From: a virus
DNA: 25,106 bases
Direction: 5' to 3' (one strand)
IMG/VR virus record: IMGVR_UViG_3300025889_000882
Coordinates: 1 to 25,106 of that record
The notes under the pieces were generated by a model, which made no database searches, was not told where the DNA came from, and was given only the letters and a program-made list of their open reading frames with translations. A program made the position numbers and the translations under genes. The number at the start of each line of letters is the position of its first letter. The first letter of the stretch is position 1. This document shows, piece by piece, positions 3,763 through 23,201 of the stretch.

Positions 3763-3771
3763 TATAAATAT
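3763..3771 (-). promoter_or_regulatory. ATATTTATA element upstream of fibre-like gene
   Basis: Exact copy of the 9-mer on the coding strand, 11 bases before the start; the leader continues ATAACAAAAATTAA to the ATG. It touches the stop codon of the upstream glycosyltransferase gene, so it would let the fibre gene be expressed separately from the glycosyltransferase operon. Confidence 0.45.
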
Positions 3772-4973
3772 CAAGAGTTCCTTACTCTTTCAATGGCTTC
3801 AGTTACTTGAGAAGGTAAAATAGTTTTAGTACATTCAAAATGTCTATCTGTTCCTTTATGGAAAGGACACCATTCCCAATCCCCAGCATCTAATCTTGTT
3901 TTATTATAACAGCTATTACACGCACTTGGAGAACCAGTAAATACTCGTTCACAATCTTGGAATTCACTAAATGGGGCACTAAACCCTGATATTAAAATTG
4001 TTTTAGTTCCTAATGCCCAACTTAACCAACTTAAACCACTACCTACACCAATAAAAAATTCAGCACCCATAATATCTGTGGCTCTGTCTTTTAATGGATA
4101 ATCTCCGGTTTTATCAATTACTCCTGTTAGGGTTCCTCCTAATTTAGAATCATGCCATTCATCACCTAAAGGTTCTTGAGTAATCATTACTACTTTATAA
4201 CCTTGATCATTTAAATAATCAATTATAGTTTGCCAACCCCCAGGATAATTCCAATATTTAGCATGTGCTGAAGCATGAGGAGCAATTACTACATATTTAC
4301 CTTCAATAGGATCTATTTGTATTGTTTTTCTAAATGAGAGTTTAGGTTTAATTTCTTTATAATCAATTCCTAAAATATCAGCACTACATTCTTGTAAGCT
4401 ATATTTTCTAAAATCATTTGGATTATAATTAGTATTTACTTCATTATCTTCATTATAATGCCAACCAATACTATACATAGCATATAGATCGTTTGCTGGA
4501 GTTCCAGGTTTAATAAATTCAATTTCAGGATATTCTGATTCAAACCATTGGTTGTGGAATGAAGAACAAACTACTTGACAATTGTGTTTTTTTCTAAATT
4601 CATCTACATAAGGGAACCAAGCTAGTGTATCTCCAATAGCTTTTGAATCTAAATGAATATAAACCCTTTTATTTTCGGCATTATACTTATGTTCAAATAT
4701 TTCTCCAGTACTTAAATTAGTTACTTTAACAAGAAAATTTAAATAATATTGAATTGAGGTTTTAGACCACATATTATTTGTAATTTCTGTTTCATGTACT
4801 AATCTATTATTATCCTGATTAATAAATTCAATTTTAAATTTAGCAGGTTTATCTCCTATAATTTCAACAAAAGCTCCTTCAATAAAGTGAAAATTAACAG
4901 TATAAGAACCTTCTTTAGGTTCTATATTTAACTTTTTTAAGTTATTATACTCTTTTATTAAAACTTCTTTCAT
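3771..4973 (-). CDS. TibC/BAHT-like protein O-heptosyltransferase (GT9-related)
   Basis: Predicted protein O-glycosyltransferase of the bacterial autotransporter heptosyltransferase family, whose members (TibC, Aah) transfer heptose from a nucleotide sugar to Ser of repetitive adhesins. The 400 residues match the family length and layout. An N-terminal beta domain (about 22-104) has YTVNFHFIEGAFVEI and NNMWS. The catalytic start is HLDSKAIGDTLAWFPYVDEF (107-126), with Asp109 in the position I recall for the TibC catalytic base. A GT-B C-terminal part contains GVGSGLSWLSWALGTKTILI (309-328). The metal finger is formed by Cys352, Cys355, Cys369 and Cys381 (CxxC-x13-C-x11-C). The start overlaps the stop of the GT4 gene by 4 bases (ATGA). 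Family assignment is by remembered motifs; the sugar and acceptor are unknown. The adjacent Ser/Thr-rich giant fibre is the obvious candidate acceptor. Confidence 0.82.
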   Translation of the reverse strand: MKEVLIKEYNNLKKLNIEPKEGSYTVNFHFIEGAFVEIIGDKPAKFKIEFINQDNNRLVHETEITNNMWSKTSIQYYLNFLVKVTNLSTGEIFEHKYNAENKRVYIHLDSKAIGDTLAWFPYVDEFRKKHNCQVVCSSFHNQWFESEYPEIEFIKPGTPANDLYAMYSIGWHYNEDNEVNTNYNPNDFRKYSLQECSADILGIDYKEIKPKLSFRKTIQIDPIEGKYVVIAPHASAHAKYWNYPGGWQTIIDYLNDQGYKVVMITQEPLGDEWHDSKLGGTLTGVIDKTGDYPLKDRATDIMGAEFFIGVGSGLSWLSWALGTKTILISGFSAPFSEFQDCERVFTGSPSACNSCYNKTRLDAGDWEWCPFHKGTDRHFECTKTILPSQVTEAIERVRNS

Positions 4974-5914
4974 ATAAATTGTTGATAAATTTCTAAAATA
5001 TCTTTACTTCTATTAAACCATGATAATCCTTTAGCAGTATTTAAAGAACTATTAACATACCAATCCCATCTTTCCATAATATCATGATAACCCATCTTCA
5101 TAGTCAAAATATCACGTGGAGATCTCCAAGCACCATGAAAATCAGTCTCCATTTCCCAATTAGCAATAATAGGCATCCCACAAGCAGCGGCCTCAATCAT
5201 TGTTAAATTAGGATGTCCTGCTTCTAACATGGTAGGGTGGACAAATATTTCATGAGTGTGATATAATTCTCTAACTTTTTCTGGGGAAGGGTCAAAATTA
5301 AAAGTTACTAAAGGACAAGTAAGTACCCAAGGATTAGCATTTAACCAATGTCTATTATTAAAAGGACCTGCTATAGTAATTTTTTTACCTAACAATGAAG
5401 CTAGACCAACACCAAAATTAAATCCTTTTCTATCAAAAGAAGGATCACCTGCTAAACCATTATTAGCAACCATTAAAAAAGTACTAGATTTTGGGGCATC
5501 TAAATTAGGATAATAAAAATCTGTATTAACACCATGAGCAAAGTACATACATTTAGGGTGATCAAAATAATCAACTAAAAACCTAGCAGGCATTAATGAT
5601 ATCAATGATCCTTCTACTGCTTTATAATTTTCTTTAAATACATAAGAATCTTTTCCGTAATGATATGCATGATGATCATGTAATTGGTAAATATAAGGAA
5701 TACCATTTTGTTGTAATGTTTCACATAAGTTAGCTACGTGACAATGTACAACATCAAATTCACCAGGACGGATATCCGATGCCATTCTAATATGAACTTC
5801 ATGTCCTAACTTTTCTAAATTAGTTTTAAACTCCCATACAATTTTTTCAATGGCACCCCATGAAGGTGGAGGAATTGGAATACCACAACCCGGATCTACT
5901 TGACAAATTTTCAT
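4970..5914 (-). CDS. GT4-family glycosyltransferase
   Basis: Predicted retaining GT-B glycosyltransferase. The 314 residues have an N-terminal Rossmann half starting MKICQVDPGCG with a Pro-rich loop (GIPIPPPSWGAIEKIVWEF, 11-29), a DVVHCHV strand (54-60) and YIYQLHDHH (74-82). The C-terminal half carries FLMVANNGL (146-154), the FVHPTMLEAGHPNLTMIEAA stretch (224-243) and CGMPIIA (245-251). Glu231 and Glu241 resemble the family's paired acidic motif, although the spacing is nine residues rather than the usual seven. At 314 residues it is shorter than many GT4 enzymes. The start overlaps the end of the upstream 891-residue glycosyltransferase by 4 bases, and its own end overlaps the next glycosyltransferase by 4 bases, so the three are translationally coupled. 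Donor sugar and acceptor cannot be read from the sequence. It probably extends a glycan primed by a partner enzyme. Confidence 0.85.
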   Translation of the reverse strand: MKICQVDPGCGIPIPPPSWGAIEKIVWEFKTNLEKLGHEVHIRMASDIRPGEFDVVHCHVANLCETLQQNGIPYIYQLHDHHAYHYGKDSYVFKENYKAVEGSLISLMPARFLVDYFDHPKCMYFAHGVNTDFYYPNLDAPKSSTFLMVANNGLAGDPSFDRKGFNFGVGLASLLGKKITIAGPFNNRHWLNANPWVLTCPLVTFNFDPSPEKVRELYHTHEIFVHPTMLEAGHPNLTMIEAAACGMPIIANWEMETDFHGAWRSPRDILTMKMGYHDIMERWDWYVNSSLNTAKGLSWFNRSKDILEIYQQFI

Positions 5915-8586: not shown

Positions 8587-8638
8587 ATAACTTAAGTAAT
8601 TTTATGTAATATAACATTTTATTTTTTAATAACCAAAC
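8587..8638 (-). promoter_or_regulatory. AT-rich leader before the glycosyltransferase operon
   Basis: A 52-base gap that is almost entirely A/T. It precedes the 891-residue glycosyltransferase and contains no exact ATATTTATA copy and no Shine-Dalgarno-like purine run. It may contain a promoter for the three-gene operon, but no specific element can be defended. Confidence 0.2.
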
Positions 8639-9340
8639 TTAAACACCTATTACGTTAGAAATATTTGCTGTAGCTACGGCATTTACTGATGATATGTTAG
8701 AAGAAGTTACCCCATTAACATCATTTCCGTACCCTGGAGGGGTATAAGTTACATCTAATGTATTATTACCATCAGCAAACCTTATTTCAGCAGAATATAC
8801 ATTATACCCAAAAGGAGTAGGATCAATGTCTGAGTAATCATAATCAAATTCTACTAATTGGATAATTAAAAACCCATTAGCATTAGCATCAGCAATAGCT
8901 GTAGCATTTAAAGGTGTAGTAACAATACCTGGGGCATTTACAAAAGTAGAACCATATGCAGGTGGTGGGTCAGAAGGAACAGTAATATCATACTCTCCTA
9001 TTTGTAGGGGGGCACTACCGTTACCACTAAACGCTAAAGTACTTTGAGCTGGTTGGATTTGTAAGGGACTACCTACACCTGTGAGCTCAATATTCATATC
9101 TATAGCTGTAATATTGGGAGCATAGGAAGATAAATCCCAATAAAAATATGCTCTACGAGTTGTGTAATAATCTCCTCCTCTACCAGTCCCATATTCAACA
9201 TAAACACCTGAAGCATTTGTAGGAGTAGAATAGTTATTAGGGGAAGAACCCGCAGGATCAAAACGAGCAGATGGCCAATCTGGGAATTGGGTCCCAAACA
9301 TAAAGGCTTCTCGGGTTGCGTTTACGTTTGCAGTTGCCAT
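8639..9340 (-). CDS. Beta-sandwich virion or carbohydrate-binding-like protein
   Basis: A 233-residue Thr/Ser/Ala/Asn-rich protein without catalytic motifs. A central beta domain (about 45-198) contains RRAYFYWDLSSYAPNITAIDM (62-82), which recalls the 'R-x-h-h-x-F/W-D-L-S' signature of DNRLRE/CBM96-type beta-sandwiches on secreted or fibre proteins. From residue 205 a short repetitive tail shows an 11-residue period: VNGVTSSNISS then VNAVATANISN, ending VIGV. From memory, similar VNGV/ANIS tails occur on phage structural proteins from environmental metagenomes. It lies 3 bases after the methyltransferase and before the glycosyltransferase operon, so it probably shares their transcript. A cap, a receptor-binding domain or a glycan-binding decoration are all possible. 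Fold assignment is tentative. Confidence 0.7.
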   Translation of the reverse strand: MATANVNATREAFMFGTQFPDWPSARFDPAGSSPNNYSTPTNASGVYVEYGTGRGGDYYTTRRAYFYWDLSSYAPNITAIDMNIELTGVGSPLQIQPAQSTLAFSGNGSAPLQIGEYDITVPSDPPPAYGSTFVNAPGIVTTPLNATAIADANANGFLIIQLVEFDYDYSDIDPTPFGYNVYSAEIRFADGNNTLDVTYTPPGYGNDVNGVTSSNISSVNAVATANISNVIGV

Positions 9341-9343
9341 TTT

Positions 9344-9907
9344 TTAAAACTGTTTTTTAGGTAAATAATAATTACTACTATTAAAATAATTATTAGGAGG
9401 TGGGTTAATTGCTATTAATTGATATTTTACATCAGGAATATTAAAAAAGTTAGATGAAGTAGACAAACTATTCCACCAAGTTGCTACTCCTCCTTCTTTT
9501 ACTAATTGGGATAAAGAAGAACTAAAATGTTTGTTATGTTCATCTCCATAAGTATCATAAAAAACTCCATCATAGGTTGATAAAATATCTAAATTATCAT
9601 ACCAACTCCCAGTTACAATAGTTACATTAGGTTTGTCTAATGCCCATTCTAAAGCTTTAGGGATAATATCGGGGTGGTTTTCTACAATGGTATGAGAAGT
9701 AATAGAAGCAGATTGAATATAACCTGCTGAGATTCCCATTCCAAATCCAATTTCTAAAATATCACCTCCATTTTGGGTAACATAAGCTGCAGAAGATGAC
9801 ATTAAGCCATCTTCCCAGTCCATCATTACCTCATGTTGTTGTCCTGATTGGTTAGTAAAATATATTTTATCTTCTTCAAATATTATACTTTGTGATAAAT
9901 AATACAT
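9344..9907 (-). CDS. Class I SAM-dependent methyltransferase, RMT2/GAMT-like
   Basis: Predicted S-adenosylmethionine-dependent methyltransferase, 187 residues. Motifs in order are VMMDWEDGLM (27-36), the SAM-binding loop DILEIGFGMGIS (49-60) with the GxGxG-like glycines, VENHP (75-79) with Glu76 placed to bind the ribose hydroxyls, and YDGVFYDTYGDEH (112-124). The combination of MMDWE before motif I, ENHP after it, and FYDTYGDEH is characteristic of the guanidinoacetate methyltransferase / arginine delta-methyltransferase (RMT2) group, which methylates guanidino nitrogens. It lacks any ankyrin or other targeting domain and is shorter than those enzymes. It lies 19 bases after the giant fibre gene and 3 bases before the beta-sandwich gene. 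The repeat core of the giant fibre contains no Arg, so its substrate is probably another protein or a small guanidino compound. Confidence 0.8.
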   Translation of the reverse strand: MYYLSQSIIFEEDKIYFTNQSGQQHEVMMDWEDGLMSSSAAYVTQNGGDILEIGFGMGISAGYIQSASITSHTIVENHPDIIPKALEWALDKPNVTIVTGSWYDNLDILSTYDGVFYDTYGDEHNKHFSSSLSQLVKEGGVATWWNSLSTSSNFFNIPDVKYQLIAINPPPNNYFNSSNYYLPKKQF

Positions 9908-9926
9908 ACCTTTTATTTCTTTAATA

Positions 9927-12900
9927 TTAAAGTGCTACCCAAGTATTATCAGGATTAAAGTAAATAGTGTTTGTTGCAACTTGATATCCTACTAGTCTAA
10001 CATAATCACCTGCTACAAATCCACTTAAATTAGCAACAAATGCTCCAGCAGTTCTTGATACATAAAGTGGAGCTCCTATAGCAAAACTATATGCTGTAGA
10101 TCTAATATATCCTCTAATTAAAATACCATCTGTTGCCGGAGTACCTCCTAAAGCAACACCTAACATATTAATAGTAGTAGCGTTATCAGCATCTGCTAAA
10201 GCCCATTGTTGTGAAGAGTTTAAATAAACTAAATCATCAAAACCAAATATACCAAATGCTGTACCTACGAAGAATATTTCACCTGTTGCTTTTGTTGCAG
10301 ATGTTGGTAAACCATACTCGACGAAACCACCAGTACTACCTCCAATAATTGTTAAAACATTACTAGTATTATTAGCTGTAACAAAATCCACTGATGATAC
10401 TTGAGTTGCTGAATCAGTTTTAACTAAATAATCTGGGAAGTTTGCAAAAGCACCCCCACTAATACCACTTGTACCGTTAATACTAGTACCTGAGGTTCCT
10501 GGTGCACCTGAAGTACCTGAAGTACCATTTACCCCTGAAGTACCTCCTTTTCCGTCTTGACCTGAAGTACCTGCTGAACCACTAGTGCCACTAATTCCAG
10601 AAATACCATTTTGACCTGAAGTTCCAGCTGAACCGTTTGTACCTGAAGTACCAGCTTTTCCACTTGTGCCTGAAGCACCTAGTTTACCACCAGTACCTGC
10701 AGAGCCATTTGTTCCACTTGTACCAGCTTTACCTGATGTTCCTGAAGCACCTAGTTTACCACTTGTACCTGCTGAACCTGCAGTACCTGAGGTACCTGAT
10801 GTACCATTTTGACCTGAAGTTCCTGAAGCACCTTGTTTACCGTTTGTACCTGCAGATCCATTTGTACCTGATGTACCAGCTTTTCCTGATGTTCCTGAGG
10901 CACCTAGTTTACCACCAGTACCTGCTGAACCATTAGTTCCACTTGTTCCTGATTTTCCACTTGTACCTGAACCCCCATCTGTACCTGAAGTTCCGGCTGA
11001 ACCACTAGTTCCACTAACCCCAGAAATACCATTTTGGCCTGAAGTTCCAGCTGAACCATTAGTTCCACTTGTTCCTGATTTTCCTGAAGTGCCTGAAGCT
11101 CCTAATTTACCATTAGTACCAGCTGAACCATTAGTACCTGATGTACCTGATTTGCCTGATGTACCTGAAGCACCTAAATTACCTGAAGTTCCAGCTGAGC
11201 CATTAGTACCTGATGTACCATTTTTACCTGAAGTACCTGAAGCACCTTGTTGACCATTTGTACCGGCTGAACCATTAGTCCCACTTGTACCAGCTTTACC
11301 TGAAGTTCCACCATTACCATTTTTACCTCCTGTACCTACAGATCCGTTTGTACCTGAAGTACCTGATTTGCCTGATGTTCCTGAATCACCTAGTTTACCA
11401 CTTGTACCTGCTGAACCTGCAGTACCTGAGGTACCTGATGTACCATTTTTACCTGAGGTACCTGAAGCACCCTGTTGACCATTTGTACCGGCTGAACCAT
11501 TAGTTCCACTTGTTCCTGATTTTCCTGAGGTACCTGAAGCACCTAGTTTACCGTTTGTACCTGCTGAACCGTTTGTACCTGAAGTACCTGATTTACCTGA
11601 AGTACCTGAACCTCCATCTGTACCTGAAGTTCCGGCTGAACCACTAGTTCCACTTACCCCTGATATACCATTTTGGCCTGATGTACCTGCAGAACCGTTA
11701 GTACCTGAAGTACCAGCTTTTCCTGATGTTCCTGAAGCGCCTAGTTTACCATTTGTACCTGCTGAACCATTAGTTCCACTTGTACCAGCTTTACCTGAAG
11801 TACCTGAAGCACCTAAATTACCTGAAGTTCCAGCTGAACCATTTGTACCTGAGGTACCTGATGTACCATTTTTACCTGAAGTGCCTGAAGCACCTTGTTT
11901 ACCGTTTGTACCTGCAGAGCCATTTGTACCTGAAGTACCTGCCTTACCTGAAGTACCTGATACTCCTAGTTTACCGTTTGTACCTGCAGAGCCATTTGTA
12001 CCTGAGGTACCTGCCTTACCTGAAGTACCTGAACCTCCGTCTGTACCTGAAGTACCAGATGAACCCGCAGTACCACTTACTCCTGCTATACCATTTTGAC
12101 CTGATGTACCGGCTGAACCATTTGTTCCGCTTGTGCCTGATTTTCCTGAAGTACCTGAAGCACCTAGTTTACCGTTTGTACCTGCTGAACCATTAGTTCC
12201 GCTTGTGCCTGATTTTCCTGAAGTACCTGAAGCGCCTAGTTTACCTGAAGATCCTGCAGAACCGTTAGTACCTGAGGTACCACTATTTCCTGAAGTGCCT
12301 GAAGCACCTAAATTACCTGATGTACCGGCAGAACCGTTAGTACCTGAAGTACCAGCTTTACCTGAAGTACCTGATACTCCTAGTTTACCATTTGTACCTG
12401 CTGAACCATTAGTTCCACTTGTTCCTGATTTTCCACTTGTTCCTGATCCACCATCAGTACCACTAGTACCTGAAGATCCACTTGTACCGCTTATAGCTGC
12501 AACACCACTTTGACCTGCTGTACCTGAAGTTCCATTTGAACCTGAAGTTCCTGATGTACCCGAGGTACCTGAAGTACCTTTTGTAGATGATTTACCACTA
12601 GTACCTGAAGAACCTGAAGTACCTGATGAACCACTTGTTCCTGATGAACCATTAGTTCCACTTGTTCCTGATTTTCCTGAGGTACCTGAAGCACCTAGTT
12701 TACCATTTGTACCTGCAGATCCGTTTGTACCTGAGGTACCAGCTTTACCTGAAGTTCCTCCAGCACCGTTTTTACCCCCAGTACCAACTGAACCGTTGGT
12801 TCCTGAAGTACCGGCTTTACCACTTGTACCTGAACCTCCATCTGTACCACTAGTACCTGAAGAACCTGAAGTACCTGAAATTGCAGCTACACCACTTTGA

Positions 12901-15900
12901 CCAGCAGTACCTGAGGTACCGTTTGAACCTGAAGTACCAGATGTACCTGAAGTACCTGATGTACCTTTTGTAGATGATTTACCTGAGGTACCAGATGAAC
13001 CAGTAGTTCCACTTGTGCCTGAAGTTCCTGATGAACCATTTGTACCTGAGGTGCCTGAGTTACCTGATGTTCCGGAAACGCCTAGTTTACCGTTTGTACC
13101 AGCTGAACCGTTTGTTCCTGAAGTACCAGCTTTGCCTGAAGTTCCCCCAGCGCCATTTTTACCTCCTGTACCCACAGAACCGTTAGTACCTGAAGTACCT
13201 GCCTTACCTGAGGTACCTGAACCTCCGTCTGTACCACTAGTACCTGAAGATCCGCTTGTACCACTTATAGCAGCTATGCCACTTTGACCTGCTGTACCTG
13301 AAGTTCCATTCGAACCTGAAGTACCTGATGTACCTGAAGTACCTGATGTACCTTTTGTAGATGATTTACCTGATGTACCAGATGAACCTGTTGTTCCTGA
13401 AGTACCAGATGTACCTGAAGATCCATTAGTACCGCTTGTACCAGAGTTGCCGGATGTTCCAGAAACACCTAGTTTACCATTTGTACCAGCTGAACCGTTT
13501 GTTCCCGAAGTACCTGCTTTACCTGAAGTTCCTCCAGCACCGTTTTTACCTCCTGTACCTACAGATCCGTTTGTACCGCTTGTACCAGCTTTGCCTGAGG
13601 TGCCTGAACCTCCATCTGTACCTGAAGTACCTGATGAACCTGAGGTGCCTGAAATTGCAGCTACACCACTTTGACCAGCAGTACCTGAAGTTCCATTTGA
13701 ACCACTAGTTCCTGATGTACCTGAAGTACCTGAAGTTCCATTTGTTGATGATTTACCACTAGTTCCTGAAGAACCTGTTGTTCCTGATGTACCTGATGTA
13801 CCAGCAGAACCATTAGTTCCACTTGTACCTGATTTTCCTGAAGTTCCAGAAACACCTAATTTACCATTAGTACCTGCAGAACCATTAGTTCCGCTTGTAC
13901 CTGATTTTCCTGAGGTACCTCCAGCACCGTTTTTACCTCCAGTACCAACTGAACCATTTGTACCTGAAGTACCTGCCTTACCTGAGGTACCTGAACCTCC
14001 ATCTGTACCTGAAGTACCTGATGAACCACTAGTACCACTTATAGCTGCAACACCGCTTTGTCCAGCAGTACCGGATGAACCTGTTGTACCTGAAGTACCT
14101 GAAGTTCCATTTGTTGAAGATTTTCCTGAAGTACCAGATGAACCATTTGTACCACTTGTACCTGAAGTTCCTGATGAACCATTTGTACCTGAGGTACCAC
14201 TATTTCCTGAAGTACCTGAGGCACCTAAATTACCTGATGTACCTACAGAACCATTTGTACCTGAGGTACCAGCTTTACCTGAGGTTCCTGAAGCGCCTAG
14301 TTTACCGTTTGTACCTGCTGAACCATTTGTACCTGAAGTACCAGCTTTACCTGAGGTTCCTGAAGCTCCATCTTGTCCCGAGGTACCTGATGAACCACTA
14401 GTACCGCTTATAGCAGCAACACCGCTTTGTCCAGCAGTACCCGAAGTACCGTTTGAACCCGAAGTTCCTGATGTGCCTGAGGTACCTGAAGTTCCATTTG
14501 TTGAAGATTTTCCTGAGGTACCAGATGAACCTGTTGTTCCTGAAGTACCAGATGTACCTGAAGATCCGTTAGTACCTGAAGTACCACTATTTCCTGAAGT
14601 ACCTGAGGCACCTAAATTACCTGATGTACCCGCAGAACCATTAGTTCCGCTTGTACCGGCTTTGCCTGAAGTTCCTCCAGCACCATTTTTACCTCCTGTA
14701 CCTACAGAACCGTTAGTTCCTGAAGTACCGGCTTTCCCACTTGTGCCTGATCCACCATCAGTACCACTAGTACCTGATGAACCACTAGTACCACTTATAG
14801 CAGCTATACCACTTTGACCTGAAGTACCAGATGAACCTGTTGTTCCTGAAGTACCTGAGGTGCCATTTGTTGATGATTTACCTGATGTACCTGAAGATCC
14901 ATTAGTACCTGAAGTACCGGAAGTTCCTGAAGATCCATTGGTACCTGAAGTTCCTGCTTTACCTGAAGTGCCTGAAGCACCTAAGTTACCTGATGTACCT
15001 GCTGAACCATTGGTTCCGCTTGTACCTGAGTTACCAGATGTTCCAGAAACACCTAATTTACCATTTGTACCAGCCGAACCATTAGTTCCGCTTGTACCAG
15101 CTTTTCCACTTGTGCCTGAAGCACCATCTTGTCCTGAGGTACCAGATGAACCTGAGGTACCTGAGATTGCAGCTACGCCGCTTTGACCTGCTGTACCTGA
15201 GGTACCGTTTGAACCTGAGGTTCCTGAAGTTCCTGATGTACCTGAAGTTCCATTTGTTGAAGATTTACCACTAGTTCCTGATGAACCTGTTGTACCTGAA
15301 GTACCAGATGTACCTGAAGATCCGTTTGTACCTGAAGTTCCTGAATTTCCACTAGTACCTGAATCACCTAAGTTACCTGAAGTACCATTAGATCCATTTG
15401 TACCTGATGTGCCAGCTTTACCTGAAGTTCCTCCAGCGCCATTTTTACCTCCTGTACCAACTGAACCATTTGTACCCGAAGTACCAGCTTTTCCACTTGT
15501 ACCTGAAGCACCATCTTGTCCTGAAGTACCAGATGAACCTGAGGTACCGCTTATAGCAGCTACACCGCTTTGACCGGCAGTACCCGAGGTACCATTCGAA
15601 CCTGAAGTTCCTGATGTACCTGAAGTTCCTGAAGTACCATTTGTAGATGATTCACCTGATGTTCCTGATGAACCTGTTGTACCGCTTGTACCTGATGTAC
15701 CAGCAGAACCATTAGTACCTGAAGTACCTGATTTACCTGATGTACCCGAAGCACCTAAGTTACCTGAAGTTCCCGCTGACCCGTTTGTACCAGAAGTACC
15801 TGATTCGCCTGAAGTTCCTCCAGCGCCATTTTTACCTCCTGTACCTACAGATCCGTTTGTACCGCTTGTACCAGCTTTACCTGAGGTGCCTGAACCTCCA

Positions 15901-18900
15901 TCTGTACCTGAAGTACCTGATGAACCTGAGGTACCACTTATAGCAGCTACACCGCTTTGGCCAGCAGTACCCGAGGTGCCATTTGAACCTGAAGTTCCTG
16001 ATGTACCTGAAGTACCTGAAGTTCCATTTGTTGATGATTTACCACTAGTTCCTGATGAACCTGTTGTTCCTGAAGTGCCTGAAGTACCAGATGAACCGTT
16101 AGTTCCGCTTGTGCCTGATTTTCCTGAGGTACCTGAAGCACCTAAGTTACCTGAAGTTCCTGCTGAACCATTTGTACCTGAAGTACCTGATTCGCCTGAA
16201 GTTCCTCCAGCACCGTTTTTACCTCCAGTACCTACAGACCCATTAGTACCACTTGTACCAGCTTTACCACTTGTACCTGAACCTCCATCTGTACCTGAAG
16301 TACCTGAACTACCTGAGGTACCTGAGATTGCTGCTACACCGCTTTGACCTGCTGTACCTGATGAGCCCGAAGTACCACTTGTACCAGAAGTACCATTTGT
16401 AGATGATTCACCTGAGGTTCCTGATGAACCTGTTGTCCCAGAAGTACCGGATGTACCTGAAGATCCGTTTGTACCTGAAGTACCAGCTTTACCTGAAGTG
16501 CCTGAAGCACCTAAATTACCTGAAGTTCCCGCTGACCCGTTTGTACCTGAGGTACCACTATTTCCTGAAGTGCCCGAAGCACCTAAGTTACCTGATGTAC
16601 CTGCAGAACCGTTAGTTCCACTTGTACCTGCTTTACCTGAAGTACCAGCTGCTCCATCTTGACCTGAAGTACCTGATGAACCTGAGGTACCTGAAATTGC
16701 GGCTACACCACTTTGACCTGCTGTACCTGATGAACCTGTTGTACCACTTGTACCAGAAGTACCATTTGTAGATGATTCACCTGAAGTTCCACTTGAACCT
16801 GTTGTACCGCTTGTACCTGAAGTTCCAGATGAACCATTAGTACCTGAAGTTCCTGCTTTACCTGAGGTGCCTGAAGCACCTAAGTTACCACTTGTACCTT
16901 CGGAACCGTTAGTACCTGAAGTACCACTATTTCCTGAAGTGCCTGAAGCACCTAGGTTACCTGATGTACCTGCTGAACCATTAGTACCTGAAGTACCTGC
17001 TTTTCCGCTTGTACCTGAACCTCCGTCTGTACCTGAAGTACCTGATGAACCTGCAGTACCACTTATCCCTGCTATGCCGGATTGACCTGAAGTACCAGAT
17101 GAACCTGTTGTACCGCTTGTACCCGAAGTACCATTTGTAGATGATTCACCTGAAGACCCGTTTGTACCTGAAGTACCTGAAGTACCAGATGAGCCATTAG
17201 TTCCTGAGGTACCAGCTTTACCTGATGTACCCGAAGCACCTAGGTTACCTGAAGTTCCAGTTGAACCGTTTGTACCAGAAGTACCTGATTCACCTGAAGT
17301 ACCTGAAACACCTAATTTACCATTAGTACCTGCAGAGCCATTAGTACCTGATGTACCGGCTTTACCTGAAGTACCTGAAGCACCATCTTCTCCAGATGTA
17401 CCTGAAGAACCACTTGTACCGCTTATAGCTGAAGCACCACTATTACCTGTAGTACCTGATGTACCATTTGAACCATTAGTTCCTGAAGTGCCTGCTTCGC
17501 CTGAAGTGCCTGAAGCACCTAAATTACCTGATGTACCTACTGAACCATTAGTACCTGAGGTACCAGCTTTACCTGAAGTACCTGATGCACCATCTTGTCC
17601 TGAGGTACCTGAACTACCTGAGGTACCTGAGATTGCGGCTGCTCCACTATCACCTGCTGTACCTGATGTACCAGAACTACCTGAAGTACCTGAGGTACCA
17701 CTTGTTGAGGATTCACCTGAAGTTCCTGATGAACCTGTTGTTCCTGAAGTACCTGAGGTACCTGAAGATCCATTAGTACCTGAAGTACCTGATTTTCCAC
17801 TAGTACCTGAGTCGCCTAAATTACCTGAAGTTCCCGCTGAACCGTTTGTACCAGAAGTACCTGATTCGCCTGAAGTACCTGCAATTCCATTTTGACCTGA
17901 TGTACCTGCAGAACCATTTGTGCCTGAAGTTCCAGCTTTACCTGAAGTACCTGATGCACCGTCTTTTCCAGATGTACCTGAACTACCGGATGTTCCTGAA
18001 ATTCCAGCTATACCGTCTTGACCTGATGTACCATTTGAACCGTTTGTACCTGAGGTACCTGATTCGCCTGATGTGCCTGCTGTACCATTAGCTCCAGATT
18101 CACCGGAAGTTCCTGTTGAACCGTTAGTACCAGAAGTACCTGCTTTACCTGAAGTACCTGAAGCACCATCTTGTCCTGAGGTACCTGATGAACCTGAGGT
18201 ACCACTTATAGCAGCTACACCACTATCACCTGCAGTACCTGATGTACCAGAACTACCTGAAGTACCTGATGTACCTGTAGTTGAAGATTCACCACTAGTT
18301 CCAGATGAACCTGTTGTACCTGATGTACCTGAAGTTCCTGCTGAACCGTTAGTACCAGAAGTACCTGATTTGGCACTTGTTCCTGAGGCACCTGTACCGC
18401 TTGTACCAGTTGAACCACTAGTACCTGAGGTACCTGCTAGTCCTGATGTACCTCCAATTCCGTTTTGACCTCCAGTTCCTGTAGATCCGTTAGTACCTGA
18501 AGTACCAGCTTTTCCACTTGTGCCTGAAGCGCCATCGATACCTGAAGTTCCTGCTGAACCACTTGTACCGCTTATAGCTGAAGCACCACTTGCTCCGGTT
18601 GTACCTGAAGTACCATTTGAACCATTAGTTCCTGATGTACCCGATTCGCCTGAAGTGCCTAATATTCCATTTTGTCCTGATGTACCATTTGAACCATTGG
18701 TTCCAGATGTACCTGCTTTACCTGAAGTACCAGCTGCTCCATCTTGACCTGAAGTACCTGATGAGCCACTAGTACCACTTATGGCTGCAACACCACTATC
18801 ACCGGCAGTACCTGAAGTACCCGATGAACCTGAAGTACCAGATGTACCTGTGGTTGAAGATTCACCTGAGGTTCCTGATGAACCACTAGTTCCAGAAGTA

Positions 18901-21900
18901 CCTGATGTACCTGCAGAACCATTTGTACCTGAGGTACCTGATTGAGCACTTGTTCCTGATGCACCTGTACCACTTGTACCTGTTGAACCTGAAGTACCTG
19001 AGGTACCTGCTAGTCCTGATGTACCTCCAATTCCGTTTTGACCTCCTGTACCTACAGAACCGTTTGTACCTGATGTACCGGCTTTACCTGAAGTACCTGA
19101 AGCTCCATCTTGACCTGAAGTTCCTGAAGAACCACTTGTGCCACTTATAGCTGAAGCACCACTGTTACCTGTAGTACCTGATGTACCATTTGAACCATTA
19201 GTACCAGAAGTACCTGATTCGCCTGATGTTCCTAATATTCCGTTTTGACCTGAAGTTCCAGCTGAACCATTAGTTCCACTTGTACCAGCTTTTCCACTTG
19301 TACCAGCAGCACCATCTTGTCCTGAGGTACCTGAAGATCCGTTTGTTCCACTTATTGCTGATACACCATTAGCACCTGCAGTACCACTTGTACCGGATGA
19401 ACCTGTTGTACCTGAAGTACCATCTTTACCAGATGTACCGCTTTGACCTTCATTACCTGAAGTACCTATTGAACCATTTGTTCCTGAGGTACCAGCTTTA
19501 CCTGAAGTACCTGAAGCGCCATCCTGTCCTGAAGTACCTGATGAACCTGAAGTACCTGAAATTGCGGCTATACCACTATCACCGGCAGTACCTGATGTAC
19601 CAGAACTACCTGAAGTACCGCTTGTACCAGAAGTACCATTTGTAGATGATTCACCTGAGGTTCCTGATGAACCTGAGGTACCTGAAGATCCATTAGTACC
19701 TGAAGTACCTGATTCACCTGAAGTACCTGAAGCGCCTAGGTTACCACTTGTACCTGCAGAACCATTTGTACCTGAAGTACCTGATTCGCCTGAAGTTCCG
19801 GAAGCACCTAAGTTACCTGAAGTTCCTGTTGAACCATTTGTTCCACTTGTACCAGATTTACCTGAAGTGCCAGATGCTCCATCTTGACCTGAAGTTCCTG
19901 AGGATCCGTTTGTTCCACTGATCCCAGAAACACCGTTATCACCTGAAGTTCCTGAAGTACCATTTGAACCATTTGTACCTGAAGTACCTGATTCGCCTGA
20001 AGTACCACTATCACCTAAGTTACCTGAAGTACCTGTTGAACCATTAGTTCCTGAGGTACCAGCTTTTCCACTTGTACCAGAAGCACCATCTTGTCCTGAG
20101 GTACCTGAAGACCCGTTTGTACCACTAACCCCAGAAATACCATTTTGACCTGCAGTACCGGATGAACCTGATGTACCACTTGTACCATCTTGACCTGATG
20201 TACCCGAAGCGCCTGTACCACTTGTACCGGTTGAACCACTAGTACCTGAAGTACCTGCTACTCCTGATGTACCTACGGCTCCATCTTCTCCTGATGTACC
20301 TGATGAACCACTTGTACCGCTTATAGCTGAAGCACCACTTGCTCCGGCTGTACCTGAAGTACCATTTGAACCGTTTGTACCTGAAGTACCTGATTCGCCT
20401 GAAGTACCACTATCTCCTAAATTACCTGATGTACCTACAGAACCGTTTGTACCTGAAGTACCAGCTTTACCTGAAGTACCTGAAGCTCCATCTTGTCCTG
20501 AGGTACCTGAAGAGCCATTTGTCCCACTAATTCCAGAAACACCACTATCACCCGCTGTACCTGATGTACCTGATGAACCTGCTGTTCCTGAAGTACCTGA
20601 GGTGCCGTTTGTTGATGATTCACCACTAGTTCCTGATGAACCTGTTGTTCCTGAAGTGCCTGAAGTACCAGATGAACCATTTGTACCTGAGGTACCTGAT
20701 TCGCCTGAAGTGCCTGAAGCACCTAAATTACCTGATGTACCTGCAGAACCGTTTGTACCTGAAGTACCTGATTCACCTGAAGTACCACTATCACCTAGAT
20801 TACCTGAAGTACCTACAGAACCATTTGTACCTGAAGTACCGGATTGACCACTTGTGCCTGAACCTCCGTCTGCACCTGAAGTACCTGATGAACCATTTGT
20901 ACCACTTATACCGGATATACCATTTTGACCTGCAGTACCGTTTGAACCTGATGTACCGCTTGTTCCATCCTGTCCTGAAGTACCTGATGCACCTGTACCA
21001 CTTGTACCGGTTGAACCTGAAGTACCTGAGGTACCTGCTACTCCTGATGTACCTACAACTCCATCTTCACCTGAAGTACCTGATGAACCAGTTGTTCCAC
21101 TTATACCTGATATACCACTTTGACCAGCAGTACCTGAAGTACCATTTGAACCATTAGTACCTGAGGTACCTGATTCGCCTGAAGTGCCACTATCACCTAA
21201 GTTACCTGAAGTACCAGTAGATCCATTTGTACCTGAGGTACCAGAATTACCTGAAGTACCTGCTGCTCCATCTTGTCCTGATGTTCCTGAAGAACCATTT
21301 GTTCCACTTATTGCTGAGGCACCACTGGCACCTTCAGTACCACTTGTACCTGAAGAACCTGTTGTTCCTGAAGTACCTGATTTAGCACTTGTTCCTGATG
21401 CACCTGTACCACTTGTACCAGTTGATCCACTAGTACCTGAGGTACCTGCTACTCCGGATGTGCCAGCAGCTCCATCTTCTCCTGATGTACCAGCTGAACC
21501 GTTTGTTCCGCTTATACCAGATATACCACTTTGACCAGTAGTACCTGATGTACCATTTGAACCATTAGTACCTGAGGTACCTGATTCGCCGGATGTGCCA
21601 CTATCACCTAAATTACCGCTTGTACCTACTGAACCATTAGTTCCTGAAGTACCACTATTTCCTGAAGTGCCTGAAGCACCGTCTTGTCCAGAAGTACCTG
21701 ATGAACCATTTGTTCCACTTATACCGGATATGCCATTTTGACCTGCAGTACCTGATGAACCGTTTGTACCTGAAGTACCTGATTCACCTGATGTACCACT
21801 GTCACCTAGATTACCTGAAGTACCTATTGAACCATTAGTTCCTGAGGTACCGGATTTTCCTGATGTACCTGAATTACCATCCTCTCCTGAAGTTCCTGAT

Positions 21901-23201
21901 GAACCAGTTGTTCCACTAATTCCAGAAACACCATTATTACCATTAGTACCTGAAGTACCATTTGAACCATTTGTACCTGAGGTACCTGATTCACCACTTG
22001 TTCCTGAAGCGCCTGTACCACTTGTACCGGTTGAACCACTAGTACCTGAAGTACCTGCTACTCCTGATGTACCTACGGCTCCATCTTCTCCTGATGTACC
22101 TGATGAACCTGTTGTACCACTAATTCCAGAAATACCATTTTGACCTGAGGTACCTGATGAACCATTAGTACCTGAAGTACCAGATTCGCCTGATGTACCT
22201 GAATCTCCTAAATTACCACTTGTACCTACTGAACCATTAGTTCCTGAAGTGCCTGATTGGCCTGAAGTACCAGATGCTCCATCTTCTCCAGATGTACCTG
22301 AAGACCCATTTGTACCACTAATTCCAGAAATACCATTTGCTCCTGCAGTACCACTAGTTCCTGAAGAACCTGTTGTACCAGAAGTACCATCTTGACCTGA
22401 AGTACCTGAGGCACCTGCACCGCTTGTACCGGTTGATCCACTAGTACCTGAGGTACCTGCTATTCCTGAAGTACCTGAAGCGCCTGTACCACTTGTACCA
22501 GTTGAACCTGAAGTACCTGAAGTACCATTTACACCTGATGTACCCGAAGCGCCTGTACCACTTGTTCCACTAGAGCCTGAAGTACCTGAGGTACCTGAAG
22601 TACCATCTTGACCTGATGTACCTGATGAACCACTTGTACCTGAAATACCACTTTGACCTGAAGTGCCAGTTGAACCACTTGTGCCTGAAGTGCCATTTGC
22701 ACCTGAAGTACCTGAAGTACCATTTACACCTGAGGTACCTGAAGTACCATCTTGACCAGATGTGCCTGAAATCCCATTTTCACCAGAAGTACCATTTGTA
22801 CCACTTGAACCGGCTGTACCTGAGGTACCTGAAGTACCTGCTGTGCCTGAAGTGCCTGAGGTGCCGGCTGTGCCTGCTCCTCCACTACCACTTCCACCAC
22901 CATTTCCAAGAATTTCTACAAGTACCCCATCAGAACCACTAGGAGTAACTCTAACACCTGAACCTGTAAAGTTAAAGTTAGATATATTTGAGCCAACTAA
23001 TGAACCAGTTTCAAAAACTGAAACAGTGGCTGTGAGAGTACTTAAATCTACACTATGTGAATATGGGAAATTACTTCCAGTAAAATAAAAGTTAAGAGTA
23101 CTACCTACTAGAGAACTAGAGTAATAGAGCGACTGAAAATTGCCGTCTACTTCCGCGAATGTTAATTCGGAACCCTTGTTTAACCTTAGGATAATACTCA
23201 T
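9927..23201 (-). CDS. Giant collagen-like Gly-X-Y fibre protein
   Basis: A single intact 4,424-codon frame. Residues 1-100 form an N-terminal module starting LRLNKGSELTFAEVDGNF, a motif I associate with the virion-attachment end of tail-fibre-like proteins. Residues about 109-4248 are about 1,380 Gly-X-Y triplets dominated by GTS, GTN, GSS and GSA, with one Pro (GAP, near the end) and, as far as I can see, no Arg, Cys, His, Met or aromatic residue. Residues 4249-4424 form a globular C-terminal domain ending YFNPDNTWVAL, likely the trimerisation or tip domain. Register breaks recur at fixed places (GESSTNG, GVAAISG, GTGASG). Acidic X residues dominate early and Lys late. The gene follows the gp15-like neck gene by 24 bases, with an ATATTTATA element 7 bases before the ATG. 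It may be a neck whisker, a head fibre or a tail fibre; collagen triple helix or polyglycine-II bundle are both possible folds. Confidence 0.93.
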   Translation of the reverse strand: MSIILRLNKGSELTFAEVDGNFQSLYYSSSLVGSTLNFYFTGSNFPYSHSVDLSTLTATVSVFETGSLVGSNISNFNFTGSGVRVTPSGSDGVLVEILGNGGGSGSGGAGTAGTSGTSGTAGTSGTSGTAGSSGTNGTSGENGISGTSGQDGTSGTSGVNGTSGTSGANGTSGTSGSTGTSGQSGISGTSGSSGTSGQDGTSGTSGTSGSSGTSGTGASGTSGVNGTSGTSGSTGTSGTGASGTSGIAGTSGTSGSTGTSGAGASGTSGQDGTSGTTGSSGTSGTAGANGISGISGTNGSSGTSGEDGASGTSGQSGTSGTNGSVGTSGNLGDSGTSGESGTSGTNGSSGTSGQNGISGISGTTGSSGTSGEDGAVGTSGVAGTSGTSGSTGTSGTGASGTSGESGTSGTNGSNGTSGTNGNNGVSGISGTTGSSGTSGEDGNSGTSGKSGTSGTNGSIGTSGNLGDSGTSGESGTSGTNGSSGTAGQNGISGISGTNGSSGTSGQDGASGTSGNSGTSGTNGSVGTSGNLGDSGTSGESGTSGTNGSNGTSGTTGQSGISGISGTNGSAGTSGEDGAAGTSGVAGTSGTSGSTGTSGTGASGTSAKSGTSGTTGSSGTSGTEGASGASAISGTNGSSGTSGQDGAAGTSGNSGTSGTNGSTGTSGNLGDSGTSGESGTSGTNGSNGTSGTAGQSGISGISGTTGSSGTSGEDGVVGTSGVAGTSGTSGSTGTSGTGASGTSGQDGTSGTSGSNGTAGQNGISGISGTNGSSGTSGADGGSGTSGQSGTSGTNGSVGTSGNLGDSGTSGESGTSGTNGSAGTSGNLGASGTSGESGTSGTNGSSGTSGTSGTTGSSGTSGESSTNGTSGTSGTAGSSGTSGTAGDSGVSGISGTNGSSGTSGQDGASGTSGKAGTSGTNGSVGTSGNLGDSGTSGESGTSGTNGSNGTSGTAGASGASAISGTSGSSGTSGEDGAVGTSGVAGTSGTSGSTGTSGTGASGTSGQDGTSGTSGSSGTAGQNGISGVSGTNGSSGTSGQDGASGTSGKAGTSGTNGSTGTSGNLGDSGTSGESGTSGTNGSNGTSGTSGDNGVSGISGTNGSSGTSGQDGASGTSGKSGTSGTNGSTGTSGNLGASGTSGESGTSGTNGSAGTSGNLGASGTSGESGTSGTNGSSGTSGSSGTSGESSTNGTSGTSGTSGSSGTSGTAGDSGIAAISGTSGSSGTSGQDGASGTSGKAGTSGTNGSIGTSGNEGQSGTSGKDGTSGTTGSSGTSGTAGANGVSAISGTNGSSGTSGQDGAAGTSGKAGTSGTNGSAGTSGQNGILGTSGESGTSGTNGSNGTSGTTGNSGASAISGTSGSSGTSGQDGASGTSGKAGTSGTNGSVGTGGQNGIGGTSGLAGTSGTSGSTGTSGTGASGTSAQSGTSGTNGSAGTSGTSGTSGSSGTSGESSTTGTSGTSGSSGTSGTAGDSGVAAISGTSGSSGTSGQDGAAGTSGKAGTSGTNGSNGTSGQNGILGTSGESGTSGTNGSNGTSGTTGASGASAISGTSGSAGTSGIDGASGTSGKAGTSGTNGSTGTGGQNGIGGTSGLAGTSGTSGSTGTSGTGASGTSAKSGTSGTNGSAGTSGTSGTTGSSGTSGESSTTGTSGTSGSSGTSGTAGDSGVAAISGTSGSSGTSGQDGASGTSGKAGTSGTNGSTGTSGESGANGTAGTSGESGTSGTNGSNGTSGQDGIAGISGTSGSSGTSGKDGASGTSGKAGTSGTNGSAGTSGQNGIAGTSGESGTSGTNGSAGTSGNLGDSGTSGKSGTSGTNGSSGTSGTSGTTGSSGTSGESSTSGTSGTSGSSGTSGTAGDSGAAAISGTSGSSGTSGQDGASGTSGKAGTSGTNGSVGTSGNLGASGTSGEAGTSGTNGSNGTSGTTGNSGASAISGTSGSSGTSGEDGASGTSGKAGTSGTNGSAGTNGKLGVSGTSGESGTSGTNGSTGTSGNLGASGTSGKAGTSGTNGSSGTSGTSGTNGSSGESSTNGTSGTSGTTGSSGTSGQSGIAGISGTAGSSGTSGTDGGSGTSGKAGTSGTNGSAGTSGNLGASGTSGNSGTSGTNGSEGTSGNLGASGTSGKAGTSGTNGSSGTSGTSGTTGSSGTSGESSTNGTSGTSGTTGSSGTAGQSGVAAISGTSGSSGTSGQDGAAGTSGKAGTSGTNGSAGTSGNLGASGTSGNSGTSGTNGSAGTSGNLGASGTSGKAGTSGTNGSSGTSGTSGTTGSSGTSGESSTNGTSGTSGTSGSSGTAGQSGVAAISGTSGSSGTSGTDGGSGTSGKAGTSGTNGSVGTGGKNGAGGTSGESGTSGTNGSAGTSGNLGASGTSGKSGTSGTNGSSGTSGTSGTTGSSGTSGKSSTNGTSGTSGTSGTSGSNGTSGTAGQSGVAAISGTSGSSGTSGTDGGSGTSGKAGTSGTNGSVGTGGKNGAGGTSGESGTSGTNGSAGTSGNLGASGTSGKSGTSGTNGSAGTSGTSGTTGSSGTSGESSTNGTSGTSGTSGTSGSNGTSGTAGQSGVAAISGTSGSSGTSGQDGASGTSGKAGTSGTNGSVGTGGKNGAGGTSGKAGTSGTNGSNGTSGNLGDSGTSGNSGTSGTNGSSGTSGTSGTTGSSGTSGKSSTNGTSGTSGTSGTSGSNGTSGTAGQSGVAAISGTSGSSGTSGQDGASGTSGKAGTSGTNGSAGTNGKLGVSGTSGNSGTSGTNGSAGTSGNLGASGTSGKAGTSGTNGSSGTSGTSGTNGSSGTSGKSSTNGTSGTSGTTGSSGTSGQSGIAAISGTSGSSGTSGTDGGSGTSGKAGTSGTNGSVGTGGKNGAGGTSGKAGTSGTNGSAGTSGNLGASGTSGNSGTSGTNGSSGTSGTSGTTGSSGTSGKSSTNGTSGTSGTSGTSGSNGTSGTAGQSGVAAISGTSGSSGTSGQDGASGTSGKAGTSGTNGSAGTNGKLGASGTSGKAGTSGTNGSVGTSGNLGASGTSGNSGTSGTNGSSGTSGTSGTNGSSGTSGKSSTNGTSGTSGTTGSSGTAGQSGVAAISGTSGSSGTSGTDGGSGTSGKAGTSGTNGSVGTGGKNGAGGTSGKSGTSGTNGSAGTNGKLGVSGTSGKSGTSGTNGSAGTSGTSGTTGSSGTSGKSSTNGTSGTSGTSGTSGSNGTSGTAGQSGVAAISGTSGSSGTSGTDGGSGTSGKAGTSGTNGSVGTGGKNGAGGTSGKAGTSGTNGSAGTNGKLGVSGTSGNSGTSGTNGSSGTSGTSGTTGSSGTSGKSSTKGTSGTSGTSGTSGSNGTSGTAGQSGIAAISGTSGSSGTSGTDGGSGTSGKAGTSGTNGSVGTGGKNGAGGTSGKAGTSGTNGSAGTNGKLGVSGTSGNSGTSGTNGSSGTSGTSGTTGSSGTSGKSSTKGTSGTSGTSGTSGSNGTSGTAGQSGVAAISGTSGSSGTSGTDGGSGTSGKAGTSGTNGSVGTGGKNGAGGTSGKAGTSGTNGSAGTNGKLGASGTSGKSGTSGTNGSSGTSGSSGTSGSSGTSGKSSTKGTSGTSGTSGTSGSNGTSGTAGQSGVAAISGTSGSSGTSGTDGGSGTSGKSGTSGTNGSAGTNGKLGVSGTSGKAGTSGTNGSAGTSGNLGASGTSGNSGTSGTNGSAGSSGKLGASGTSGKSGTSGTNGSAGTNGKLGASGTSGKSGTSGTNGSAGTSGQNGIAGVSGTAGSSGTSGTDGGSGTSGKAGTSGTNGSAGTNGKLGVSGTSGKAGTSGTNGSAGTNGKQGASGTSGKNGTSGTSGTNGSAGTSGNLGASGTSGKAGTSGTNGSAGTNGKLGASGTSGKAGTSGTNGSAGTSGQNGISGVSGTSGSAGTSGTDGGSGTSGKSGTSGTNGSAGTNGKLGASGTSGKSGTSGTNGSAGTNGQQGASGTSGKNGTSGTSGTAGSAGTSGKLGDSGTSGKSGTSGTNGSVGTGGKNGNGGTSGKAGTSGTNGSAGTNGQQGASGTSGKNGTSGTNGSAGTSGNLGASGTSGKSGTSGTNGSAGTNGKLGASGTSGKSGTSGTNGSAGTSGQNGISGVSGTSGSAGTSGTDGGSGTSGKSGTSGTNGSAGTGGKLGASGTSGKAGTSGTNGSAGTNGKQGASGTSGQNGTSGTSGTAGSAGTSGKLGASGTSGKAGTSGTNGSAGTGGKLGASGTSGKAGTSGTNGSAGTSGQNGISGISGTSGSAGTSGQDGKGGTSGVNGTSGTSGAPGTSGTSINGTSGISGGAFANFPDYLVKTDSATQVSSVDFVTANNTSNVLTIIGGSTGGFVEYGLPTSATKATGEIFFVGTAFGIFGFDDLVYLNSSQQWALADADNATTINMLGVALGGTPATDGILIRGYIRSTAYSFAIGAPLYVSRTAGAFVANLSGFVAGDYVRLVGYQVATNTIYFNPDNTWVAL
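10458..22877 (-). repeat. Gly-X-Y coding repeat tract (9-bp step)
   Basis: About 12.4 kb inside the giant fibre gene in which almost every third codon is Gly. The basic step is 9 bases (GGT ACT TCA and relatives). Ser is written by both TCA/TCT and AGT/AGC codons, and Thr by ACT and ACA mostly, so the DNA is less repetitive than the protein. Short interruptions such as SSTN, AAIS and GTGAS occur repeatedly. In the part nearest the C-terminus (about 10.6-12.4 kb) a 72-base sub-repeat of eight triplets is evident: GKA GTS GTN GSA GTN GKL GVS GTS with variations. Confidence 0.95.
12831..14378 (-). repeat. 387-bp higher-order repeat block
   Basis: Using the conserved landmark encoding GTDGGSG or G(Q/E)DGASG, the same phase recurs at 12831, 13218, 13605 and 13992, exactly 387 bases (43 triplets, 129 residues) apart. 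Further right the landmark continues at 14361, 14748, 15117, 15504, 15891, 16278, 16647 and 17016, giving steps of 387 or 369 bases. From about 17.4 to 20.1 kb the steps become 207 and 360-369 bases. Adjacent 387-base units at 12831 and 13218 encode 129 residues that differ only by one Ile/Val while the DNA differs at about 62 positions by hand count. Confidence 0.85.

Follow-up and report, generated by a model that had tools for sequence, protein, structure and literature searches.

We analysed a viral contig of 25,106 bases (IMG/VR record IMGVR_UViG_3300025889_000882; hereafter the window), whose source is a T4-like phage of aquatic bacteria. Among its structural genes the window encodes a giant collagen-like fibre together with a set of glycosyltransferases (GTs), one of them a homolog of the bacterial protein O-glycosyltransferase TibC. 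The pairing of such a fibre with a TibC-type enzyme recurs in many other phages, and we therefore think it probable that fibres of this kind are sugar-coated by the phage itself, its own enzymes glycosylating serines of the fibre inside the infected cell to give a sugar-coated filament. The initial annotation of the window had proposed that phage enzymes build glycans on the fibre; the enzyme identities and the genetic linkage held up under analysis, and the glycosylation itself stays a prediction.

A TibC-family enzyme and a collagen-like fibre in one gene cluster

The product of the gene at 3771-4973 matched the NCBIfam model TIGR04414 over residues 20-397, scoring 330.7 bits against a curated cut-off of 200 (E 1e-98), and the TibC structure 4rap aligned over nearly its full length (E 2e-58). 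In TibC, Asp110 is catalytic, Thr226, Lys230, Arg286 and Trp305 bind the sugar, and Cys 339, 342, 358 and 370 form an iron finger (Yao et al., PMC4358343). By alignment, the phage equivalents are D115, S235 (Thr226 replaced by Ser), K239, R297 and W316, and the four-cysteine iron finger is retained as C352, C355, C369 and C381; all of these residues were invariant in 14 phage homologs. Pro300 of TibC, a stereoselectivity residue, corresponds to Gly311 in the phage enzyme. Judged from its sequence, the product is a genuine O-glycosyltransferase of the TibC/Aah (BAHT) family with an intact active site, and the initial assignment as TibC-like was correct. The TibC branch acts on protein, and as TibC and Aah modify Ser and not Thr (PMC4358343), we set aside Thr as the glycosylated residue; the same point qualifies the idea, raised in the initial annotation, that glycosylated Thr might stabilise a triple helix.

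The TibC-like gene is preceded by two other GT genes, and four-base ATGA overlaps were found at both GT junctions (5911-5914 and 4970-4973). A gene overlap of four bases is a usual sign of translational coupling; therefore, the three GT genes appear to be translationally coupled. The middle gene product matched PHROG 33732 'glycosyltransferase' (E 4e-10) and fell just under the cut-off of the Pfam GT4 models. These matches are weak yet consistent and agree with its earlier assignment to GT4. In megaphage LR756501, a homolog of this enzyme is fused to a TibC domain.

The first of the three GTs, an 891-residue protein, had been described as a multidomain GT4/GT25 enzyme. As its predicted structure as a whole reached a predicted template modelling score (pTM) of only 0.41, we used domain-level matches only, and the C-terminal 570 residues were refolded alone (pTM 0.52). 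The predicted model contains three putative transferase domains: a GT4 domain of the GT-B type at residues 1-322 (Pfam PF00534, E 2e-10; Z about 20 to GT-B structures), a GT-A domain at about residues 324-580 (best fold match glycogenin, Z 12.9) and, after a beta domain, a GT25-like GT-A domain at about residues 662-870. This last domain fell below the Pfam cut-off (PF01755, E 9e-4, 19.6 bits against 24); its fold matches included GT25-type enzymes such as Mimivirus R655 and the PBCV-1 capsid glycosyltransferase (Z about 12) and beta-1,4-galactosyltransferase (Z 12.3). A match to COLGALT1 (Z 12.2) spans two domains with a root-mean-square deviation of 22, and GT-A folds are widely alike. Thus, the GT4 part of the earlier description was supported by both Pfam and fold and the GT25 part is tentative, with backing from the predicted fold, and an additional GT-A domain had been missed. 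Based on the TibC identity and the predicted domains, the operon would supply one initiating protein GT and four further transferase domains.

The fibre is encoded by a single open frame and comprises an N-terminal anchor (about residues 1-105), a Gly-X-Y repeat (about residues 107-4240) and a C-terminal tip (about residues 4250-4424). The probability of finding Gly three residues after a Gly was 0.93, compared to 0.33 (maximum 0.37) in 200 shuffled sequences, in keeping with the giant Thr/Ser/Gly fibre of the initial annotation. Across 1232 triplets, the X position was Thr in 56% and the Y position Ser in 62%. Pro-rich X and Y positions, usual for collagen-like proteins, were not observed in these triplets; the repeat region holds only two Pro, one of them within the 1232 triplets. 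Nor is the repeat a perfect array, as it is broken dozens of times (e.g., G-T-G-A-S-G and G-V-A-A-I-S-G). The protein is nevertheless collagen-like in sequence, since Gly recurs every three residues along an extended, interrupted stretch. A collagen triple helix is a candidate fold, with a polyglycine-II bundle as a possible alternative. No hydroxylase was found in the window. The G+C content of the fibre gene (window 10001-23000) is 0.41-0.48, compared to 0.28-0.36 elsewhere in the window, a rise we attribute to its Gly codons.

The N-terminal 43 residues of the fibre matched a 'tail fiber protein' of Flavobacterium phage immuto (49%, E 2e-4, 42% of the query). Homologous fibres carry the same linker with swapped tips: one (L087) ends in Peptidase_S74 (E 5e-20), a chaperone of phage tail fibres, and others share the tip found in the window, for which there was no Pfam match. 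The match to immuto and the Peptidase_S74 tip of the homolog support the view, already taken in the initial annotation, that the collagen-like protein is a virion fibre, here of the tail type.

All genes treated here lie on the minus strand, at coordinates that agree with the initial annotation (Table 1). Their order in the reading direction is neck-type protein, fibre, methyltransferase, a protein of no recognised family, 891-residue GT, GT4, TibC-like enzyme, small structural-type protein, sheath and tube. The placement of the GT cluster and fibre among neck and tail genes was thereby borne out, with sheath and tube recognised by sequence matches and the neck genes by synteny only.

Table 1. 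Genes of the fibre and glycosyltransferase locus and its flanks.
Positions	Strand	Product	Basis or remark
23226..24164	-	Neck-type protein, upstream anchor of the locus	Precedes fibre or sheath in relatives by conserved synteny; no family match; named by position
9927..23201	-	Giant fibre, 4424 residues	Single open frame
9344..9907	-	Small methyltransferase, guanidinoacetate-methyltransferase-like	PDB 1xcj/1p1b, E about 1e-16
8639..9340	-	Protein after the methyltransferase	No Pfam match; relatives in the same position in L004, L005, L049, L053, L133, L155 and L427
5911..8586	-	Multidomain glycosyltransferase, 891 residues	Pfam and predicted folds
4970..5914	-	GT4-type glycosyltransferase	PHROG and Pfam matches
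3771..4973	-	TibC/Aah-family protein O-glycosyltransferase (GT9 superfamily)	TIGR04414, PDB 4rap
3071..3751	-	Small structural-type protein directly after the TibC gene	No family match; partial relatives in other contigs
629..2740	-	Tail sheath, downstream anchor	PHROG 23, E 2e-69; Phage_sheath_1 (Pfam), E 6e-14
91..579	-	Tail tube	E 2e-22

The methyltransferase, nearest to guanidinoacetate N-methyltransferase (PDB 1xcj), is unexpected in a phage genome; it also trails the fibre in five other loci (L049, L053, L133, L155 and L427). The protein that follows it is possibly an accessory structural protein. Other contigs encode partial relatives of the small structural-type protein, either at the equivalent position or elsewhere in the neck-to-sheath interval.

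Recurrence of the pairing in other viruses

The initial annotation had proposed a survey of the linkage between TibC-like genes and Gly-X-Y fibres, a check that could have failed. L- and G-numbered names below denote the loci and viral records compared. In IMG/VR, 194 sites hold a relative of the TibC-like gene, and almost every one with enough upstream sequence displayed the same gene order and a Gly-X-Y fibre; the order fibre-GT4/GT25-GT4-TibC-sheath was repeated in dozens of viral contigs. Comparison contigs were seeded by neck and tube genes, so that TibC was not selected for. In these contigs the neck gene adjoined the sheath or other fibres, mostly without TibC, and related phages with neck genes next to the sheath usually held neither fibre nor TibC. 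Both were present in 29 of 99 sheath clusters. Among complete neck-to-sheath spans, 7 held both, 3 held TibC only and about 30 held neither (Fisher test on 7/0/3/30, p 6e-6, uncorrected for shared descent); L133, with a Ser-poor fibre ahead of the neck, was left out of this test. On the sheath tree, the two traits change 7 and 8 times. Two members of the clade, G018 and L133, carry a Gly-X-Y fibre with no TibC found; both contigs are fragments, and their fibres contain only 2-3% Ser.

Viral contigs were also drawn by fibre DNA alone, using either a Ser/Thr-rich or a Pro-rich Gly-X-Y pattern. A TibC homolog was present in 21 of 50 Ser/Thr-rich records and in 0 of 46 Pro-rich-only records (p 9e-8). 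The whole Pro-rich sample had one such record in 47, G070, which was drawn by both patterns and hence removed. As the two samples differ in record size and G+C, we compared restricted subsets: TibC was found in 13/40 versus 0/31 records of 24-112 kb (p 3e-4), in 17/44 versus 0/22 records with G+C of at most 0.45 (p 3e-4), and in 13/40 versus 0/13 records of the tightest G+C band (p 0.02). Two records of the Pro-rich sample reach 23-26% Ser. For 15 of the 21 TibC genes, a Gly-X-Y fibre lay no more than 6.2 kb away (5.4 such genes expected); G070 and G074 belong to these 15, and in each the fibre closest to TibC is Pro-rich or mixed. Many TibC homologs of the fibre-drawn records are fused to other domains; therefore, the pairing is not a single inherited locus.

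The isolated Microcystis phage Mel-JY01 provides an example, the sole cultured one that we found, in which a GTSG-rich open frame adjoins a GT4-TibC fusion. This frame (PP395634; L083, 2-3049) seems unannotated, and the two opposite-strand genes recorded there are probably misannotations. In record G066 (163,945 bases), the TibC homolog at about 9545-10579 (L759) is broken by seven in-frame TGA codons, which suggests that this phage reads TGA as an amino acid.

The TibC loci of Proteobacteria and Selenomonadaceae that we examined were mostly without long Gly-X-Y runs. By a loose test, 13 of 79 bacterial TibC loci had at least 40 residues of Gly-X-Y, two of them being the phage-like contigs L427 and L428.

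Proposed glycosylation of the fibre and alternative explanations

We infer the fibre as acceptor, the order of addition, the sugars and the benefit as follows. Late in infection, the very long collagen-like tail or neck fibre would be made together with the phage glycosylation enzymes. The TibC-like enzyme would act in the host cytoplasm, adding a first sugar to many Ser of the Gly-X-Y repeat, and the GT4 and GT4/GT-A/GT25 enzymes would extend this sugar to a short glycan before assembly. The outcome would be virions bearing a sugar-coated filament. The most likely benefits would be that a filament with almost no Pro is kept soluble and resistant to proteases, and that adsorption is shielded or tuned.

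Several observations weigh against this proposal. Only three independent pairs were available on the sheath tree; all agreed, and p was 0.25, too few for significance. No TibC was seen in 29 of the 50 Ser-rich records, many of which are fragments. TibC also occurs in other company: L061 (1-2293) and L075 (1-4290) pair it with beta-roll (LbR_Ice_bind) fibres ending in Peptidase_S74, L129, L306 and L344 carry it in a neck-to-sheath span that lacks a Gly-X-Y fibre, and L327 has a distant, fused TibC beside a Ser-poor, Pro-rich Gly-X-Y fibre, in a locus that also holds a GT25 domain and a 2-oxoglutarate (2OG) oxygenase. The fibre, therefore, need not be the substrate everywhere. The proposed linkage thus held in both synteny and fibre-drawn samples and proved not to be specific to collagen-like fibres. 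A more cautious rule is that TibC-type enzymes accompany long, repetitive fibres of the virion, among which Ser-rich Gly-X-Y fibres are the most frequent.

Observations on the sugar donor likewise weigh against the proposal. A search of 14 phage records with TIGR02199 alone did not reveal a complete ADP-heptose pathway. Two records gave matches, neither above cut-off and one weak. The better match, an RfaE-II-like cytidylyltransferase (E 3e-30) in a stand-alone frame of 137 residues (L426, at 68066-68449 of the 164,118-base relative G025), possibly serves sugar activation. A 'cytidylyltransferase' gene near TibC in Mel-JY01 had no TIGR02199 match. L427 and L428, phage-like contigs with the full locus, were binned in two Flavobacteriales metagenome-assembled genomes, one of them Winogradskyella; this suggests Flavobacteriales hosts, although binning may explain the placement instead. 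An ADP-heptose kinase domain was detected in 31 of 41 genomes of the family of one of these assemblies, mostly just under cut-off, and in 0 of 41 genomes of the other candidate host family. As none of the 41 sampled genomes of the latter family has the kinase, the sugar may come from a donor other than ADP-heptose, or may not be a heptose at all.

The main rivals to fibre glycosylation are that the acceptor is a different virion protein and that the enzymes modify the host surface. The structural-type gene that usually lies directly after TibC (3071-3751 in the window) could encode the acceptor, the fibre being merely a neighbour; its counterpart in L117 contains 31% Ser, and the three loci with TibC between neck and sheath and no Gly-X-Y fibre fit such a role. 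However, relatives of this small protein are also encoded where TibC was not found (e.g., in contigs L206-L218), and this explanation does not account for TibC tracking Ser-rich and avoiding Pro-rich Gly-X-Y fibres across unrelated phages. We consider it unlikely. A role in altering host surface polysaccharide, for example to block superinfection, would be in line with the lipopolysaccharide synthesis served by GT4 and GT25 families and with the host-recognition islands of pelagimyophages, whose glycosyltransferases are proposed to alter the host surface, the explanation favoured there by the authors (PMC7029224). That role predicts independence from fibre composition, contrary to the association described above, and the TibC branch is protein-directed (PMC4358343). 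The three genes are, moreover, coupled to one another inside a structural cluster, and a host-surface function seems improbable for them.

Two further explanations appear weaker. If the neck-to-sheath interval were a hypervariable cargo site that collects the fibres and GTs of common aquatic lineages, no functional link would be needed. The content of this interval does vary widely (no insert, other fibres, 2OG oxygenases or nucleotide-sugar genes) and the fibre samples were unequal in G+C and record size, but the signal held after matching for both, TibC and fibre were near neighbours in records of 30-300 kb, and the association extended to other TibC architectures such as GT4 fusions, which makes mere coincidence very unlikely. 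T4-like phages glucosylate their DNA. PMC12619734 likewise cites phage glycosyltransferases whose target is DNA, and T4 alpha-glucosyltransferase (Z about 19) is one of many GT-B folds with which the GT-B domain of the 891-residue enzyme aligned. This fold match is common to hundreds of GT-B enzymes, however, and the TibC homology, the late structural gene setting and the dependence on fibre composition make sugar hypermodification of phage DNA extremely improbable. Glycosylation of fibre serines by the phage is the explanation we prefer.

Oxygenase-type genes were observed at some fibre loci. A 2OG-Fe(II) oxygenase domain (PF13640) occurs in L327 (1-4066), L017 (1485-2735) and L146 (2001-2597), and DUF6445 (PF20043) in L125 (2-3092) and L017; in L327 and L125, the Gly-X-Y fibres next to these genes are rich in Pro and poor in Ser, a hint that proline may be hydroxylated in collagen-like fibres of phages. 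In the phage set searched for TIGR02199, PF13640 was found only in Mel-JY01 and megaphage LR756501, in both outside the fibre locus, and the oxygenase is therefore not a general part of the system. A bolder and rather doubtful idea is that aquatic phages carry collagen-maturation kits matched to their fibres, in which TibC-type enzymes glycosylate nearly Pro-free, Ser-rich collagen-like fibres from a non-heptose donor and dense Ser-glycans take over the helix-stabilising role of Pro. Some Pro-rich fibres would instead be accompanied by genes of the 2OG-Fe(II) oxygenase type (L327; in L125, DUF6445 only). Such kits, if real, would be a bacterial-virus parallel to the maturation of animal and mimivirus collagens.

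Significance and comparison with known systems

If fibre glycosylation is correct, giant glycoprotein filaments are made by an entire class of abundant aquatic phages that supply the protein O-glycosyltransferases themselves, and TibC-type chemistry reaches from bacterial adhesins to virions. This would give a testable explanation for the stability of collagen-like fibres with hardly any Pro, as well as a phage-borne kit for glycosylating repetitive proteins. It would also make the usual annotation of phage GTs, as modifiers of host surface or DNA, doubtful for these loci. Virion glycosylation and TibC-type enzymes are each already known; the combination is new within the literature searched, which excluded most subscription papers and all preprints and in which we found no report of a phage TibC enzyme, whether alone or paired with a collagen-like fibre.

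The closest known counterparts of the system are TibC-TibA and Aah-AIDA-I, in which autotransporters are heptosylated (BAHT family; TIGR04414; PMC4358343). The phage enzyme belongs to the same family above cut-off, shares the catalytic and iron-finger residues, and has a long, Ser-rich repetitive surface fibre as its partner. It differs in that this partner is a tail-type Gly-X-Y fibre, with no autotransporter among the annotated window genes, that extra GTs are coupled to it, that Gly replaces Pro300, and that the donor may not be ADP-heptose.

Gly-X-Y repeats are known in fibre-type proteins of phages and prophages (e.g., PMC3368898, PMC10202952); unlike those, the repeat in the window is nearly Pro-free, Thr/Ser-rich, longer than 4000 residues and paired with protein GTs. 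Mycobacteriophages, as reported by Freeman et al. (2023, Cell Host Microbe; summarised in PMC11256854 and PMC12619734), similarly glycosylate virion proteins with phage-encoded GTs. According to these summaries, capsid and tail-tube subunits are modified there, whereas a TibC-type enzyme and a giant fibre, whose modification is predicted, are involved here. Mimivirus L230 hydroxylates Lys and glucosylates the hydroxylysine of viral collagen (Luther et al. 2011, as described in PMC4691112). In both cases the virus encodes, here by prediction, a glycosylating enzyme for its own collagen-like protein; compared to L230 as described there, the predicted site is Ser, the window has no recognised hydroxylase, and the virus is a bacteriophage.
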